DNA from: a virus
Virus record (IMG/VR): IMGVR_UViG_3300030104_000602
Span: 1 to 31,302 of that record
Length of the DNA: 31,302 nucleotides
Strand: one strand, 5' to 3'
The first letter of the stretch is position 1. Every line of letters starts with the position of its first letter. A program made the position numbers and the translations under genes. Below, in pieces: positions 3,369-31,302 of this stretch. The notes below the pieces were generated by a model that worked only from the letters and a program-made list of their open reading frames with translations, was not told the DNA's origin and searched no databases.

Positions 3369-3803
3369 TTATTCTTTCCATTCTTTAGGTAGTGTATGTT
3401 CAGAGAACCACCTAAAATTATTTTTTTCTGCCCACTCTGCATGACTACGTTTTGTTCCGTCCTTTCTTCTTTTAGCTTGAGGCATAGGAGAACTAGGACT
3501 TGAAAACAAAAAGACTAACTCTTGATTAGGTTTAAGACACTTACGTATCCAAACATATTTATTGTATTCTTGGTAATCCCAAAACCTACCTTTAGCTTCA
3601 AGTAAGTATTCTACACCATCTATAACTTTTGTAAAGTCAGGTTCGTAAGTGTGTTCAACTATGTAAGAAACTTTATCGGAATGATGACTCCATTTTTTTA
3701 AAGAGTTTTTATGTAACGTATACTCCCAATTAGAATCATAACCTTTAGGTAAATTTTTTTCTATAGGTCTAACCTTCCGTGGTTTTCTATATCCTCGTTT
3801 CAC
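3369..3803 (-). CDS. Endonuclease I, T7 gp3-like Holliday junction resolvase
   Basis: Structure-selective nuclease that cuts branched DNA such as four-way junctions and cruciforms. In T7 it helps degrade host DNA, recombine and clear branches before packaging. The 144-residue protein has the T7 endonuclease I signature in order: E27 (SNWE), D56 in YEPDF and the E69-x-K71 pair in LEAKG, followed by a conserved WIRK and hydrophobic core. Length matches T7 gp3 (149 residues). It overlaps the upstream unknown gene by 4 bases. Its substrate preference is of interest here because the window contains a long chain of potential cruciforms at 14824-15936. Confidence 0.88.
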   Translation of the reverse strand: MKRGYRKPRKVRPIEKNLPKGYDSNWEYTLHKNSLKKWSHHSDKVSYIVEHTYEPDFTKVIDGVEYLLEAKGRFWDYQEYNKYVWIRKCLKPNQELVFLFSSPSSPMPQAKRRKDGTKRSHAEWAEKNNFRWFSEHTLPKEWKE

Positions 3804-14452: not shown

Positions 14453-14496
14453 AATTATTTGTTGTTGTACTGTGGCACAATTGCCAAAGCCACTCC

Positions 14497-14525
14497 ATCA
14501 AAACATGGTGATGATTTTTTGTCAA
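14497..14525 (-). promoter_or_regulatory. Leftward early promoter
   Basis: Minus strand: TTGACA (14525-14520), 17-base spacer, TTTGAT (14502-14497). The -10 is weak, but the -35 is perfect and the AT-rich block upstream (14542-14556) is shared with the promoters at 13137 and 13775. The 38-base leader can form a small hairpin (GTGGC/GCCAC). Confidence 0.65.
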
Positions 14526-14575: not shown

Positions 14576-14703
14576 TAGTTATTATATAAAAACTATATAA
14601 ACTCCATACTCCTGTAAGCTTTTGAAGGGTGTTAAAACGTGTAGACACATAAGTACTTACGCATAAGTATCTATGTAAGCCTTACGTAAAGACTAAAAAA
14701 TAC

Positions 14704-14801
14704 TAATGGCAAAGTTACCCTAAAGGGTAAAATTTTTATTAGAAAAAAAAGCTTGACGGGGTTTCGGCAAAAAGTTACCTTGTAATGGCAAATTTCGGCA
14801 A
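14704..14801. repeat. Iteron-like short direct repeats
   Basis: TAATGGCAAA occurs at 14704-14713 and 14783-14792. TTTCGGCAA occurs at 14762-14770 and 14793-14801. GTTACC occurs near 14714 and 14774. Repeats in this spacing just outside the divergent early/late boundary could be protein-binding sites for a replication initiator or regulator. Confidence 0.5.
14753..14781 (+). promoter_or_regulatory. Weak rightward promoter candidate for the first hairpin ORF
   Basis: TTGACG (14753-14758), a 17-base spacer, then TACCTT (14776-14781). The -35 is good and the -10 poor. It is placed about 40 bases before the ATG at 14823. Confidence 0.4.
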
Positions 14802-14822: not shown

Positions 14823-15140
14823 ATGACCATAGGTCAGGAGGTTGTTATCAAAACAACAACAAAAAATGGTGCTAAAGCACCCCAAAAAACCAGTAAGTTT
14901 AACGAAGAAGCTAGAGCTTCTTATCCTCAAGTAATGAAAATTGCTATGCATTTTTCAAAGCTTACTAAATGTCCGAAGGACATCAAGTTCGGAACTTTGA
15001 GAGGTCATTTTTTAGCGAAGCTAAATGATGCAAAGAAACCTTTGACTCAAGGTCAAGTTTCTAAACTTCTTACGCTGAAAGCTGTTCCAGCTTCGGATTT
15101 GAAGTCCATGAGAGCTTATAAAGATTTTCAATCTTCATAA
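14823..15140 (+). CDS. Hypothetical protein encoded in the hairpin array (105 aa)
   Basis: A lysine-rich 105-residue protein (starts MTIGQEVVIK; basic with K at many positions, ending YKDFQSS). No known domain. Its coding DNA is built from consecutive short inverted repeats (14824 to 15142), so it is unclear whether selection acts on the protein, the RNA or the DNA. The stop codon lies within a 13-bp hairpin (15114-15142). A perfect AGGAGG sits inside the reading frame at 14837-14842, with no standard in-frame start just after it, while the ATG at 14823 has a poor ribosome site. A terminator follows at 15154. The ORF is open and continuous, so I keep it with moderate confidence. Confidence 0.55.
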   Translation: MTIGQEVVIKTTTKNGAKAPQKTSKFNEEARASYPQVMKIAMHFSKLTKCPKDIKFGTLRGHFLAKLNDAKKPLTQGQVSKLLTLKAVPASDLKSMRAYKDFQSS

Positions 15141-15153
15141 GCAGTTTGGGATT

Positions 15154-15176
15154 AGGGAGCTTTATGCTCCCTTTTT
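15154..15176 (+). terminator. Terminator after the first hairpin ORF
   Basis: Stem AGGGAGC / GCTCCCT with loop TTTAT (15154-15172), followed by T's. Nearly the same hairpin is used at 15501, so the two ORFs look like paired units. Confidence 0.8.
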
Positions 15177-15181
15177 CCCTA

Positions 15182-15199
15182 AATTTTTATATAAAAATT
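15182..15199. repeat. Perfect 18-bp palindrome upstream of the second hairpin ORF
   Basis: AATTTTTATATAAAAATT is its own reverse complement. It ends 11 bases before the ATG at 15211. It could be an operator, a cruciform site or simply AT-rich sequence; the perfect symmetry and position are noted. Confidence 0.7.
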
Positions 15200-15203
15200 G
15201 GAG

Positions 15204-15225
15204 AAAATTTATGAGTATAAATTTT
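15204..15225 (+). promoter_or_regulatory. Hairpin enclosing the start codon of the second hairpin ORF
   Basis: Arms 15204-15212 and 15217-15225 pair perfectly (9 bp) around the loop GAGT. The ATG occupies 15211-15213, and the ribosome site (GGAG) is just upstream. The fold would hide the start codon, so translation may depend on unfolding. Confidence 0.6.
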
Positions 15226-15483
15226 GAAGTATCTAAACACTCTTTCTTAGATGGTTTACATCTAAAAACAGAGTTTGAAAATGGATATGAAGTATCCATT
15301 GTTCCTAGTCAAATCCCTTTCGGGATTAATGATTTTCAAGGTAACCCTGAAAGGGTTGAACTAGGTATTTTCTTTCAAGGTACTATGATTAGTACCTTTA
15401 GTGATGAGGATTTAACTTACTTGACTCCGTCAAGAGCTATTGAAATCTGCAAAGAGGTCGAAGACCTCAATCCAAATATCTAA
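15211..15483 (+). CDS. Hypothetical protein encoded in the hairpin array (90 aa)
   Basis: A 90-residue protein starting MSINFEVSKHSFLDGL, with a plausible globular composition: alternating beta strands (YEVSIVPSQIPFGI, RVELGIFFQG) and a C-terminal helix (SRAIEICKEVEDLN). It has a good ribosome site (GGAGAAAATTT then ATG) and its own terminator at 15501. These are better signs of translation than for its neighbour. Its DNA is nevertheless a run of perfect hairpins (start codon in one, stop codon in another). No family recognised. Confidence 0.65.
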   Translation: MSINFEVSKHSFLDGLHLKTEFENGYEVSIVPSQIPFGINDFQGNPERVELGIFFQGTMISTFSDEDLTYLTPSRAIEICKEVEDLNPNI

Positions 15484-15500
15484 CTAGATATTTGAAATTT

Positions 15501-15527
15501 AAGGGAGCTTTATAGCTCCCTTTTTTT
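15501..15527 (+). terminator. Terminator after the second hairpin ORF
   Basis: Stem AAGGGAGCT / AGCTCCCTT with loop TTAT (15501-15522), followed by further T's to 15527. It resembles the terminator at 15154 closely. Confidence 0.85.
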
Positions 15528-16083
15528 GTCTGAATTCTTTTAGGCCTATTTTATTCTAAAATTGGCTCAAAAGAATTGACCAACAACAACCAGGTATCTT
15601 TCAGATACTTGGTTAACAATCAAATTTAAAGCTATTTAGAGAGCCGTAGAGCCATAAATACTATCGAACCCTAGCTATCCCCCCAATCAGAGTTAAAAAC
15701 TCTGTAGAGCCTTGATTTACCTATTGAATCTGTAAAGTCTTTAGAGACTTTAAAGTTATAATAAACTTACATAAATTCTCTTAGAATTTTGTAAACTTCA
15801 TATTCTTTTAAAACTCTAGAGAGTTTTAGGAGCTATCCAAATAATTAGAGATGAGAATTAAGTCTGTAAGACTTGTCAGATATCTCAATTCTTTAAAACT
15901 CTTTAGAGTTTCAAGGGGTAGGCAGGTGACCACCCCCCTCTCCCCCTATATATGCACAATCCTATACATTTTTAGAAGTTTTGAAGTGTTAAGTAGAAAA
16001 TAGCCCCGGACATCAAAGAGCTTTAAAGAGCTTTATAGTAGGGTAGGAATATATAGATGTACAACCCCTACCGGACAAGCCTC

Positions 16084-16112
16084 AGTATACAGTTGTATTC
16101 CAAGTTTGTCAA
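16084..16112 (-). promoter_or_regulatory. Leftward consensus-like promoter facing the hairpin array
   Basis: Minus strand: TTGACA (16112-16107), 17-base spacer, TATACT (16089-16084). The transcript would enter the gene-free hairpin region antisense to the two ORFs. Its -35 box is one arm of the inverted repeat at 16105-16136. Confidence 0.8.
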
Positions 16113-16136
16113 GCATTATTTAAACTACTTGACAAA
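16105..16136. repeat. Inverted repeat linking two divergent -35 boxes
   Basis: TTTGTCAAG (16105-16113) and CTTGACAAA (16128-16136) are perfect reverse complements across 14 bases. Each arm contains the -35 box of one promoter. A regulator binding here would affect both directions. Confidence 0.75.
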
Positions 16137-16157
16137 TTCATACTCATACCCTATAAT
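16129..16157 (+). promoter_or_regulatory. Consensus sigma70 promoter for late genes (TerS)
   Basis: TTGACA (16129-16134), 17-base spacer, TATAAT (16152-16157): an exact consensus. The expected start of transcription is about 16163-16165, at or next to the ATG of TerS, so the mRNA may have no leader. Confidence 0.88.
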
Positions 16158-16164
16158 AAAACAA

Positions 16165-16584
16165 ATGAATCTTCCAGCAACTAAAAGAAAATTAACAGAA
16201 AAGCAACAAGCTTTCTTAGATAACCTTATAGAAACAAAAGGAGATTTAAAGCTTTCTGCTGAACTTGCAGGCTACGCAGGAAATCACTATCAAATTATGC
16301 AAAGCCTTAAACAAGAAATAGTCGAGTTAGCCTCAACAGTCCTCGCAAGGGAAGCACCTAAAGCAGCTTTTAAGCTTGTTGAAGTCATGGAGAGCGATAC
16401 AGCCATGCCACAAGCTAATGTAAAGTTACAAGCAGCACAAACTATATTAGATAGAGTTGGTGTTTCTAAAACAGAACGAATGCAAATAGACCACAATGTT
16501 TCGGGTGGTATTTTTATATTACCTGAAAAAGAAACAATAGATATTAAAGCAGAGGATACTCAATATGAAGATATTCCTAACTGA
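16165..16584 (+). CDS. terS: Terminase small subunit
   Basis: DNA-recognition subunit of the packaging motor, 139 residues from the chosen start (MNLPATKRKLTEKQQAFLDN). The N-terminal LTEKQQAFLDNLIETKGDLKLSAELAGY stretch is a helix-turn-helix typical of phage small terminases. A helical oligomerisation region and an acidic C-terminus (IDIKAEDTQYEDIPN) follow. An in-frame ATG at 16057 would add 36 residues but lies upstream of a perfect promoter whose start site is at 16163-16165, so the shorter form is preferred. It has no ribosome site; leaderless translation is likely. TerL is encoded about 1.6 kb downstream, with small genes and an IscU gene between. Confidence 0.82.
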   Translation: MNLPATKRKLTEKQQAFLDNLIETKGDLKLSAELAGYAGNHYQIMQSLKQEIVELASTVLAREAPKAAFKLVEVMESDTAMPQANVKLQAAQTILDRVGVSKTERMQIDHNVSGGIFILPEKETIDIKAEDTQYEDIPN

Positions 16585-17617: not shown

Positions 17618-17761
17618 ATGCCACAGTTAGGTTCAGACAAACAACCAGTTAAATTCAAACCTTTAGCTAAACAAAAAGCTAGATTATCCATGAGAGGTAA
17701 AGGTATTCGTGACCAAAAACAATTTGAAGAAAACTGGGATAAAATATTTAATAAGAAGTAA
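17618..17761 (+). CDS. Small basic hypothetical protein (47 aa)
   Basis: A 47-residue protein starting MPQLGSDKQPVKFKPLAKQK and ending DKIFNKK. It is basic with an RLSMRGKGIRDQKQFEENWDK segment like short DNA- or RNA-binding motifs. It lies one base after the membrane peptide and overlaps the IscU start by one base. No family recognised. Confidence 0.6.
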   Translation: MPQLGSDKQPVKFKPLAKQKARLSMRGKGIRDQKQFEENWDKIFNKK

Positions 17762-18174
17762 TGGCTTATTCTCAACAAGTCATTGATAGGTTCAATAGTG
17801 TTTTATCTGAACCTGAAAAACATTCAGTAGGTCGATTCGACCCTCAAGACCCAAACGTAGCTACAGGAATGACAGGAGCACCTGCCTGTGGTGATGTTAT
17901 GCGTTTACAGTTAAAACTAAACGGAGATACAATAGAAGAAGTTAAGTTTAAAACATATGGTTGTGGTTCTGCTATAGCTTCCTCTACTATGTTTGTAGAG
18001 ATGTTAAAAGGAAAAACAATAGAAGAAGCTAAAGAAATAAAAGATAAAGATATAGCACAAGCTTTAGAGTTACCTCCAATTAAGTTACATTGTTCTGTTC
18101 TTGCAGAAGAAAGTATACATAAAGCTATAGAAGACTGGGAAACTAAAACAAAACATAGGAAACACAATCAATGA
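17761..18174 (+). CDS. iscU: IscU-type iron-sulfur cluster assembly scaffold
   Basis: Scaffold on which a 2Fe-2S cluster is built from cysteine-desulfurase sulfur and iron before transfer to apo-proteins. The 137-residue protein matches cellular IscU end to end. It has C43 in GAPACGDVM with D45 two residues on, C68 in KTYGCGSAIASS, and H110-C111 in LHCSVLAEES. The LPPIK motif (104-108) corresponds to the LPPVK site through which HscA/DnaK-type chaperones act. All three cluster cysteines, the Asp and the chaperone site are kept, so it is probably functional. The basic tail (KTKHRKHNQ) is not typical. It overlaps TerL by 4 bases and the preceding gene by one, so it belongs to the late operon and is unlikely to be a stray host fragment. 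Confidence 0.93.
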   Translation: MAYSQQVIDRFNSVLSEPEKHSVGRFDPQDPNVATGMTGAPACGDVMRLQLKLNGDTIEEVKFKTYGCGSAIASSTMFVEMLKGKTIEEAKEIKDKDIAQALELPPIKLHCSVLAEESIHKAIEDWETKTKHRKHNQ

Positions 18175-28186: not shown

Positions 28187-31100
28187 ATGGCACAAACATA
28201 TACACGACAGAGTTCGTTTGCAGATGGAGATACAGTTACTGCTGCATTATTTAACAACGAATATAATCAGTTAGTCAACGCATTTGCATATAGTTCAAGT
28301 AGTGCAAGTTCTACAGGACACAGACACGATGGTACTGCAGGACAAGGTGGTAACATTCATACTATCGGTGACTTAGACTTTTTAAACAAGATTGTCGTAG
28401 ACAGTACAAATAACAGATGGGGATTTTATGTAGAAGTTTCTTCTTCTGCAGTAGAACAAATTAGATTACAAGACGGAGCTTTATTACCCGTTACAGATAG
28501 TGATGTAGACTTAGGAACATCTTCACTATATTTCAAAGATGCATACATAGATTCAATAACCACAACAGGCAATGTAGCTGTAGGTGGTAACTTAACAGTA
28601 ACAGGAACTACTACCTTTAATGGTGGTACGCTTACTCTTGGTGATTCTGCTTCAGACAATGTTGTATTTGGTGCTGACGTAGATTCAAACATAATACCTG
28701 ATGATGATAATGCCTATGACCTTGGTAGCTCATCACAAGAATGGAAAGATTTATACATCGATGGAACAGCCAACATCGATAGTTTAGTAGCTGATACAGC
28801 AGACATAAATGGTGGTACAGTTGATGGTGCAGTTATTGGTGGTTCAAGTGCAGCAGCTATAACTGGTACAACTATTACAGGTACTACAATTACAGGCACA
28901 AGTTTTGTTATAGGTTCAGCAGATATAAGTGAAGCAGAACTAGAAATTCTAGACGGGGCTACAGTAACTACTGCAGAACTAAACATTCTAGATGGAGTTA
29001 CATCAACCGCAGCAGAACTTAATATTCTTGATGGAGTTACATCAACTGCTGCAGAGTTGAACATTCTTGATGGTGTTACAAGTACAACAGCAGAACTAAA
29101 CTTATTAGATGGTGTAACAGCTACTACAGCAGAACTCAATATACTTGACGGAGTTACAGCTACAGCAGCAGAGCTAAATGCTCTTGATGGTATTACTTCA
29201 ACAGTTGCTGAACTAAATATACTTGACGGGGTTACAGCAAGTGCTACAGATATTAACCTTATAGATGGTATAACAAACGGAACAGTTATAGCAAGTAAAG
29301 CTATAATTACCGATTCAAACAAAGACATTACTGGTGGTAGAAATATAACTATTAGTGGTGAACTTGATGCAGCTACACTTGACATATCAGGCGATGCAGA
29401 CATAGATGGTACATTAGAAGCTGATGCAATTACTATAGGTGGTGTTACATTAGCAGAAACAATTAGTGATACTGTTGGAGCTATGGTTAGCTCTAATACA
29501 GAATCTAACATATCAGTTACTTATGAAGATTCAGATAATACACTAGACTTTGCTTTACCTGCTGCTTTAGAAATTACTACATCTATCGGAGTCGGTGGTG
29601 GCTCTACAAATGGTATAGTTCTTGAGCAAGGTGGGATTAAGATTAAAAATGGTGGTACACAGTCATACGTAGATTTTTACTGTGAATCAAATAATGCACA
29701 TTATTTAAGACTACAAGCACCTGCACACTCAGCATTTAGCGGTAATCCAACTGTAACCTTACCTTCTTCTGCAGGTACAATAGCATTAACGTCTGGTAAC
29801 ATTACAGGTAATGCAGCTACTGCTACAGCATTAGCAACAGCTAGAACTATTGGTGGTACAAGTTTTGATGGTACAGGTAATATTTCTGTAGCTTTGGCAG
29901 ATACCGCAACAGCTTTAGCTACAGCAAGAACAATACATGGTGTATCTTTTGATGGTACAGCAAACATAGACTTATCAGAAGTTGTACAAGATACTGTAGG
30001 TGCTATGTTCTCAAGTAATACTGAAACAGGTATTACAGCAACATATCAAGATAGTGACGGAACAATTGATTTAGCTATTGGTAATGTGGCTACAGTATCA
30101 GATGGTTCAAATTCAACTGCAATAGCTTCTGGAGGAACTATTACATTTGCAGGAACTTCTAACGAAATAGATGTAGCAGAAAGCTCTGGTACAATAACAT
30201 ATGGATTACCAAGTAACGTAACTATTGGTAATAACTTGACAGTCTCTGGAAACTTAACAGTTTCTGGTACAACTACACAGACTGGTCCAATAGTTTCAGA
30301 TGATAACTTTACAGGCTTACTAAATTCTAACACAGGCAACTCAAGTGACTTTGGTTTCTATGGTAAGTATGTTGAGTCAAGTACAACTAAGTATGCAGGT
30401 TTATTTTTTGATGCTTCTACTGACAATACATTTAGATTATTTACAGATACACAAACTGAACCGGCTGCTACAGTAGATGCAACTGCGGCAGGATATGCAG
30501 TTGCTGATTTAGTAATCGGTGGTTTAACAGCTACTACAGGAACATTCTCAGGTGCTGTGTCTGCTACAACAGGTACGTTCTCAGGTGATGTAAATGTAGA
30601 TAGTGGTGTTTTGTTTGTCGATGTAAGTACAAATAGAATTGGTGTGAATGAAACTACACCAACAGTCTCTATCGATGCCGGGTCTAATACAGATGCGATA
30701 TTAATACCTAAAGGTACAACAGCACAAAGACCAACTGCTGAAGCAGGGTTATTTAGATACAATACAACTACAGCACAGTTTGAAGGTTACACAAGTGAGT
30801 GGGGTGCTATTGCAGGTTCAGGTGGTAGTGGTGGAAGCTCATCATCATTTGTAAGAGATGAGTTTACAGGTAATGGTAGTACAACTGCATTTACACTATC
30901 TAAATCTATTTCTGCAAATAATGAAGATAGATTAATTATCTTTAATGAAGGTGTATTCCAAAGACAAGATTCATATACGCTATCAGGTACAACATTAACT
31001 TTTGATACTGCTCCTGCTAATGGAAATAAAGTAGTTGCTTACATTATGGAAGTTGGAGTTGTAGGTACTGCACCAACAGTTGATACTATGACTGGTGATG

Positions 31101-31302
31101 GTTCAGATACTACACTAGCTTTAAGTGTTTCACCTTCAAATGAAAATGCAACCTTTGTAACTATTGATGGTGTATTCCAACACAAAGATACATATGCAGT
31201 TTCAGGTAGCACACTAACATTTAGTGAAGCTCCTCCAACAGGAACTAAAGTAGAATGTACAACATTTACTAATACTACTGTAGCTACTATTGAACTAAAA
31301 GA
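28187..31302 (+). CDS. Tail fibre/spike protein with tandem repeats, C-terminus outside window
   Basis: Open frame of at least 1038 residues, running off the window. The N-terminus (MAQTYTRQSSFADGDTVTAA) is a likely tail-attachment domain. A repeat-rich shaft follows: GNLTVTGTTTFNGG-type repeats, then nine 12-residue repeats of the AELNILDGVT form (28934-29278), then TATALATARTI- and GDVNVDSG-type units. The last visible part has two copies of a beta domain (GNGSTTAFTL and GDGSDTTLAL, each followed by an FQxxDxYxxSGxTLTF block), likely a carbohydrate- or receptor-facing region. Trimeric beta-helical architecture is inferred. It starts three bases after the nozzle gene, with a ribosome site (AGGAGA). 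Confidence 0.88.
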   Translation, partial: MAQTYTRQSSFADGDTVTAALFNNEYNQLVNAFAYSSSSASSTGHRHDGTAGQGGNIHTIGDLDFLNKIVVDSTNNRWGFYVEVSSSAVEQIRLQDGALLPVTDSDVDLGTSSLYFKDAYIDSITTTGNVAVGGNLTVTGTTTFNGGTLTLGDSASDNVVFGADVDSNIIPDDDNAYDLGSSSQEWKDLYIDGTANIDSLVADTADINGGTVDGAVIGGSSAAAITGTTITGTTITGTSFVIGSADISEAELEILDGATVTTAELNILDGVTSTAAELNILDGVTSTAAELNILDGVTSTTAELNLLDGVTATTAELNILDGVTATAAELNALDGITSTVAELNILDGVTASATDINLIDGITNGTVIASKAIITDSNKDITGGRNITISGELDAATLDISGDADIDGTLEADAITIGGVTLAETISDTVGAMVSSNTESNISVTYEDSDNTLDFALPAALEITTSIGVGGGSTNGIVLEQGGIKIKNGGTQSYVDFYCESNNAHYLRLQAPAHSAFSGNPTVTLPSSAGTIALTSGNITGNAATATALATARTIGGTSFDGTGNISVALADTATALATARTIHGVSFDGTANIDLSEVVQDTVGAMFSSNTETGITATYQDSDGTIDLAIGNVATVSDGSNSTAIASGGTITFAGTSNEIDVAESSGTITYGLPSNVTIGNNLTVSGNLTVSGTTTQTGPIVSDDNFTGLLNSNTGNSSDFGFYGKYVESSTTKYAGLFFDASTDNTFRLFTDTQTEPAATVDATAAGYAVADLVIGGLTATTGTFSGAVSATTGTFSGDVNVDSGVLFVDVSTNRIGVNETTPTVSIDAGSNTDAILIPKGTTAQRPTAEAGLFRYNTTTAQFEGYTSEWGAIAGSGGSGGSSSSFVRDEFTGNGSTTAFTLSKSISANNEDRLIIFNEGVFQRQDSYTLSGTTLTFDTAPANGNKVVAYIMEVGVVGTAPTVDTMTGDGSDTTLALSVSPSNENATFVTIDGVFQHKDTYAVSGSTLTFSEAPPTGTKVECTTFTNTTVATIELK
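28934..29278 (+). repeat. Nine tandem 12-residue repeats in the tail fibre
   Basis: About nine 36-base units encode AELNILDGVT-like sequences. The wording changes from unit to unit (for example ALDGIT or LIDGIT). DNA identity between units is imperfect, so they are old or under selection. Such repeats can expand or contract and change fibre length. Confidence 0.85.

Follow-up and report, generated by a model that had tools for sequence, protein, structure and literature searches.

Short DNA hairpins, set one after another over about a kilobase and running through two genes as well as noncoding sequence, occur in part of the genome of a marine podovirus, and compensatory changes within and outside the genes keep their stems base-paired. 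The DNA analysed (hereafter the window) comprises 31,302 nucleotides of IMG/VR record IMGVR_UViG_3300030104_000602, and the phage is related to the pelagiphages HTVC115P, HTVC103P and HTVC104P; a more remote relative is HMO-2011. What can be said most safely is that DNA base pairing is maintained at this array. The best explanation, in which the function is inferred, would place the array in the probable replication-initiation region of a SAR11-type podovirus group, where DNA opened by an R-loop would fold into single-stranded hairpins, a reading to which we assign a probability of roughly 0.38. The array fits no family tested, and no description of hairpin arrays in phages was found in the open-access literature. 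The features of the locus are compiled in Table 1.

Table 1. Features in and around the hairpin array (positions in the window)
Feature	Position	Strand	Remarks
Probable ORF1 promoter	14753..14781	+	found by eye: TTGACG, 17 bp, TACCTT; under the threshold of the scan tool
ORF1	14823..15140	+	105 aa, pI about 10, four predicted helices; 9 hairpins in coding sequence
Hairpin array	14841..15911		29 non-overlapping perfect inverted repeats, arms 6-10 bp, loops mostly 2-5 nt
Hairpin with T-rich tail	14868..14881	-	at ORF1 start; possible end of leftward transcript
Intrinsic terminator after ORF1	15154..15177	+	belongs to chain; hairpin 15154-15172 with T tail
ORF2	15211..15483	+	90 aa, weak phrog_4074 match (unknown function); 7 hairpins
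Noncoding part of array	15484..15914
Intrinsic terminator after ORF2	15501..15529	+	belongs to chain; hairpin 15501-15522 with T tail
Conserved GC block with G-tract	15915..15957	-	minus strand: GGGGGAGAGGGGGGTGG...CCTGCCTACCCC; right-hand limit of array
Leftward sigma-70-type promoter	16084..16112	-	TTGACA, 17, TATACT; 11 of 12
Rightward terS promoter	16129..16157	+	TTGACA, 17, TATAAT; 12 of 12
terS (terminase small subunit)	16165..16584	+	anchor for finding relatives

A preliminary description of the window had claimed at least 28 perfect hairpins at 14824-15936, coordinates that proved accurate. A program count over this interval (arms of at least 6, centre of 0-6) yields 29 maximal perfect inverted repeats, none overlapping another, versus a mean of 3.35 (sd 2.0, maximum 11) in 200 dinucleotide-preserving shuffles, which confirms the excess. 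The final hairpin ends at 15911, and an extra covarying hairpin lies at 14715-14730, beyond the start originally given. It had also been held that the rest of the window lacks a similar chain, and the remaining sequence indeed stays at background, with 1-8 inverted repeats per 1113-base window. Folded as single-stranded DNA the array has a z-score of -17.9, and folded as RNA one of -11.4. Loop length is tightly set: 3 nt is the mode (182 observed versus 6.0 expected, a 30-fold enrichment), followed by 2 nt (101 versus 7.2) and 4 nt (61 versus 6.7), and loops of 6-8 nt are at or under chance.

The array spans ORF1, ORF2, the terminator after each and a noncoding stretch. The inverted repeats within ORF1 (9 versus 1.6 expected) and ORF2 (7 versus 0.9 expected) are matched by none of 500 synonymous-codon shuffles of either gene, so that neither composition nor the encoded proteins account for the excess; coding constraint is ruled out both by these shuffles and by ORF1 relatives that are free of hairpins. 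The arm sequences of the 29 hairpins are unlike one another and share no common unit, which rules out a CRISPR or an interspersed repeat family, as had been argued from the start. REP/BIME elements, CRISPRs and other repeat families likewise consist of palindromic units in arrays, but their units share sequence. Dimeric protein-binding sites are ruled out as well, as the arm sequences vary freely while pairing stays. The array is also not a set of intrinsic terminators: only two of the rightward hairpins are clear cases, and the others have no T run. A search with ARAGORN returned nothing.

Conservation of the pairing is seen in an alignment of eight sequences: Watson-Crick combinations make up 89.4% of the stem cells, and a double change has taken place at 30 pairs. 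When the partners were slid by 1-3 columns these values fell to 22-37% and 3-9 pairs, and 500 shuffles gave at most 19 double-change pairs. Comparison of 13 independent close pairs of sequences revealed 36 compensated changes (22 transitions and 14 transversions), with change per site amounting to 0.071 in stems, 0.150 in loops and 0.100 outside the hairpins. In some cases the compensated change affects the encoded protein at both arms. One such hairpin, at 14868, reads GGTGCT/AGCACC in the window and GATGCT/AGCATC in one relative (L007), replacing Gly by Asp and Pro by Ser, and the hairpin at 15420 reads CTTGAC/GTCAAG in the window and CTTGTC/GACAAG in another (L002), where Thr/Ser is exchanged for Ser/Thr. 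The arms in relatives change with compensation, the very point on which the preliminary description had let its case depend.

Whether such pairing belongs to RNA or to DNA can be read from the wobble pairs. A folded RNA should tolerate changes that give G-U on the transcribed strand, and GT and AC on the plus strand are what such changes look like for an RNA of one strand or the other. Among one-sided stem changes, 30 give GT and 33 give AC on the plus strand, and the noncoding part alone gives 16 GT and 13 AC. Stems of 23 phage T5 tRNAs, which served as control and in which standing pairs instead of changes were counted, contain 26 GU and 3 AC; the array differs from them with a Fisher p of 9e-5 if read as plus strand and 4e-4 if read as minus strand. 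Perfect stems of 7 or more number 203 versus 10.5 expected; stems with a single mismatch stay close to chance, with 22 GT (8.4 expected) and 11 AC (9.8 expected), several of the GT cases being terminators. Wobble pairs are thus favoured on neither strand, and whatever constrains or shapes the stems acts on DNA and not on an RNA of either strand.

This finding bears on the proposal, also raised earlier, of a structured RNA, in which a leftward leader or the ORF1 mRNA would form a hairpin chain controlling stability, processing or expression. The proposal draws on the strong leftward promoter, whose transcript reaches the left operon without passing a leftward ORF of 60 aa and is conserved in its 5′ part, on the RNA folding score and on the genuine terminators within the chain. 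Covariation is present, but it comes without the G-U preference of the tRNA control; loops of 3 nt predominate, whereas those of rRNA are mostly 4 nt (PMC8794818); the array runs across the ORF1 terminator, with much of it lying beyond; and Rfam gives no match in the window at gathering thresholds. A structured RNA is therefore regarded as improbable. Among the interpretations offered in the preliminary description, those that fit best are a DNA-level structure and a hot spot of polymerase template switching, and those that find no support are the structured RNA and a special role for endonuclease I.

Template switching is the main rival and could be the sole cause. Here the hairpins of a stretch that is often single-stranded or prone to R-loops would be a mutational hot spot, where the polymerase, switching template during replication, perfects palindromes and copies mutations from arm to arm with no function needed. 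Template switching that perfects hairpins is documented (PMC8794818, PMC8604942), and such mutations have been tied to highly transcribed DNA and RNA-DNA hybrids (PMC3820800). The process predicts pairing that is Watson-Crick only, GT equal to AC, slower change in stems, whole-stem replacements and transversions among the compensated changes, of which there are 14 among 36; homogenisation of arms without wobble intermediates is indeed what the 36 compensated pairs and the equality of GT and AC display. The hairpins made in this manner in rRNA, microRNA and yeast genes likewise have perfect stems and multi-pair compensation without wobble intermediates, but they are scattered single events and the array is dense, inherited and linked to a module (PMC8794818, PMC8604942). 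Inversion of the spacer, a hallmark of template switching, is marginal: 7 of 18 fully different triloops are reverse complements versus 19% expected (p 0.04), and in 2-nt loops inversion falls below expectation, so that loop inversion, being not clearly above expectation, is not convincing as proof. Furthermore, palindromes in conserved coding sequence last across 51-63% protein identity, and sister phages that agree in promoter, G-tract and gene order lack the array. Mutation without function is, on balance, an unlikely account, yet a serious one.

The distribution of the array was followed among relatives. All seven IMG/VR contigs with close ORF1 homologues carry it, at 22-28 repeats per kb versus a genome median of about 3, and in two 52-kb genomes it is the sole repeat peak; distant ORF1 homologues (51-63% identical) are likewise accompanied by an array. 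To avoid selecting on ORF1, terS was used as anchor, which gave 80 loci. The array thereby recurs, as the wider search among marine phages called for at the outset has borne out, in 28 of these IMG/VR loci (near-duplicates included; about 22 are distinct), and every one of the 28 has an ORF1 homologue (E below 1e-37). There are 36 array-less loci with about 1 kb or more of upstream sequence, of which 32 are without a clear ORF1 (five of them with a marginal hit only) and four (L122, L126, L131 and L139) have a diverged ORF1. The association has a p of 6e-14, a value that overstates independence as the loci are related and include near-duplicates. Within the present phage group the array thus occurs only together with ORF1, and always between ORF1 and terS. 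On a terS tree, which is weakly supported, the array trait needs six changes, two of them on well-supported branches. A scan of the isolates HTVC115P, HTVC103P, HTVC033P and HMO-2011 (first 50 kb) detected no array, and the four near-complete array genomes share no other gene family exclusive to them. ORF2 is also found in the nearest relatives.

ORF1 itself belongs to no known family or fold; fold searches gave no credible match (best Z 3.5). Its relatives are absent from the phage isolate collection, and 50,697 phage records together with bacterial genome contigs yielded only one marginal, unrelated hit. The first hexamer of its probable promoter is TTGACR in relatives. Upstream of ORF1 there are AT-rich palindromic motifs resembling TTACGYRTAA (14640-14680 in the window; about 2000-2250 in L005 and about 2710-2730 in L055), which are commoner in relatives; counted as iterons across the window, they show no enrichment.

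Four features go beyond the preliminary account, namely the link to ORF1, the narrow range of loop lengths, a divergent promoter pair and a conserved G-tract, the last two of which concern the setting of the array. Leftward replication genes lie to its left; on the other side terS, at 16165, is the first of the rightward genes for packaging and structure. The leftward promoter, back to back with that of terS, occurs in each of the 37 array loci, where it scores 11-12 of 12, and in each of the 35 array-less loci examined, the isolates among them. About 130-170 nt downstream of it (about 130 nt in the window) is the G-tract, which all 37 array loci and 28 of the 35 others possess, versus 4% of random pieces, although in a few loci the first G-run taken by the program is closer to the promoter. 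Its block has the fuller minus-strand form CATATATAGGGGG..GGGGGGTGG..CCTGCCTACCCC and is found in relatives with or without an array. The array occupies the interval from this block to the ORF1 start. In four near-complete array genomes the GC-skew minimum is at or near the array locus, a position compatible with an R-loop-primed replication origin; gene orientation flips there too, which alone could produce the minimum.

ColE1 RNA II is an example of an R-loop-primed origin. In the LSP-CSBII primer region of mitochondria, transcription stops after about 120 nt, and the transcripts, which lie in stable R-loops, are processed to primers (PMC6317783). Array loci share with ColE1 and the human mitochondrial region a strong promoter, a G-tract 100-200 nt downstream, an untranslated transcript and a divergent transcription hub, a likeness of layout drawn here from sequence; the known origins, however, lack a long hairpin array that overlaps genes. 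The origin-like layout around the array may be of a known kind. By the replication-initiation model, the untranslated leftward transcript would form an R-loop anchored at the G-tract, opening the DNA on its left, and both opened strands would fold into mini-hairpins. The hairpins would hold this DNA open, or provide sites at which the phage primase-helicase, SSB or the basic protein encoded by ORF1 is loaded or bound, so that replication could begin. Template switching within hairpins during such synthesis would probably help to maintain identical arms. Against the model are the four loci that carry ORF1 without an array and the presence of the promoter pair and G-tract in array-less relatives; since both are present there, an origin in those relatives would not need hairpins.

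A pattern scan uncovered arrays in two further phage lineages. In the first (L192:1749-2272, IMGVR_UViG_3300030372_002799), seven perfect hairpins of 16-26 bp, with loops mostly of 2-4 nt, and two longer imperfect ones form an end-to-end chain, flanked on one side by a terS with the same GC block and on the other by the gene of a 129-aa basic protein, itself hairpin-bearing. Pairs in these long stems comprise 197 Watson-Crick, 1 GT, 3 AC and 2 other. The 129-aa protein has an AT-hook-like GRPKGS motif. In the second lineage (L181:753-2829 and L170:7775-9180), tri-loop hairpins lie in and around a gene for a basic protein of 286-310 aa (55% identical between the two). The phages have genomes of 67 kb, and upstream there are a conserved C-run and a long perfect palindrome. 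Comparison by hhalign showed no relation of ORF1 to the array proteins of L192 and L181. Tentatively, then, the arrays may represent an undescribed phage DNA element, namely a kilobase-scale, maintained array of single-stranded-DNA tri-loop hairpins that overlaps genes, is tied to a small basic protein, builds a replication-initiation zone and recurs in unrelated lineages, also with stems of 16-26 bp.

The position beside terS invites another reading, in which extruded hairpins are recognised by terminase as part of a pac or cos site. The constant place of the array in the present phage group, adjoining the conserved GC block, agrees with this, as does the same order with its long stems in L192. 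Relatives whose TerS is 84% identical (L069 and L070, for example) nevertheless lack the array, the arrays of L181 and L170 are not known to adjoin a terS gene, and packaging sites normally measure tens to a few hundred bases and are conserved in sequence; the ends of the contigs, for their part, do not represent physical genome ends. A packaging role is considered very unlikely. Another idea is that of a decoy or protection, whereby cruciform-like DNA would titrate or block a host nuclease or junction-binding protein; in linear duplex, however, extrusion of stems as short as 6-7 bp is poor. That many tight palindromes are gathered in one place, where a basic protein is encoded, would suit such a device, but no partner has been identified, and no array is present in HTVC115P, with an annotated endonuclease, or in the first 50 kb of HMO-2011, which has an annotated endonuclease I gene. 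The decoy is the least credible of the readings, and the special role once suggested for endonuclease I gains no support, given the same two phages.

Hairpins of comparable form are known from other systems. The intergenic region of M13/fd uses a hairpin chain for origin and packaging and shares with the array the adjacent hairpins in an origin region; there, however, the genome is single-stranded and the hairpins are about five and noncoding, whereas the array has up to 30, partly coding, in a tailed dsDNA phage. Promoters of the N4 virion RNA polymerase are DNA hairpins with the same 5-7-bp stem and 3-nt loop, but they are few sites of conserved sequence used by a virion polymerase, and in the array the stem sequences vary. 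Perfect inverted repeats within protein genes are also encountered in mitochondria of Nematomorpha (PMC6649704), where the arms are far longer, the organisms are different and there is no tri-loop array. Conservation of DNA-level secondary structure by covariation is rarely shown, and almost never inside coding sequence; the present locus supplies dozens of covarying DNA hairpins together with natural controls, since some sister phages carry the array and others lack it. Should the array be under selection, it reveals a type of DNA control element not seen before, in marine phages that may be abundant, and their replication origin becomes testable; should mutation alone have made it, it stands as a strong record of template switching in nature. 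In both cases, a simple wobble test tells DNA pairing from RNA pairing.

Several further features of the window were recorded. A TTGACA with a weak second hexamer at 14496-14524 (minus strand), upstream of the left operon, is a possible separate leftward early promoter. A phage endonuclease I family gene (PF05367) is located at 3369-3803 on the minus strand, a long ORF at 28187-31300 has many LDGVT-type repeats and is tail-fibre-like, and positions 17761-18174 encode a NifU_N/IscU-like iron-sulfur scaffold protein (PF01592, E 5e-39).
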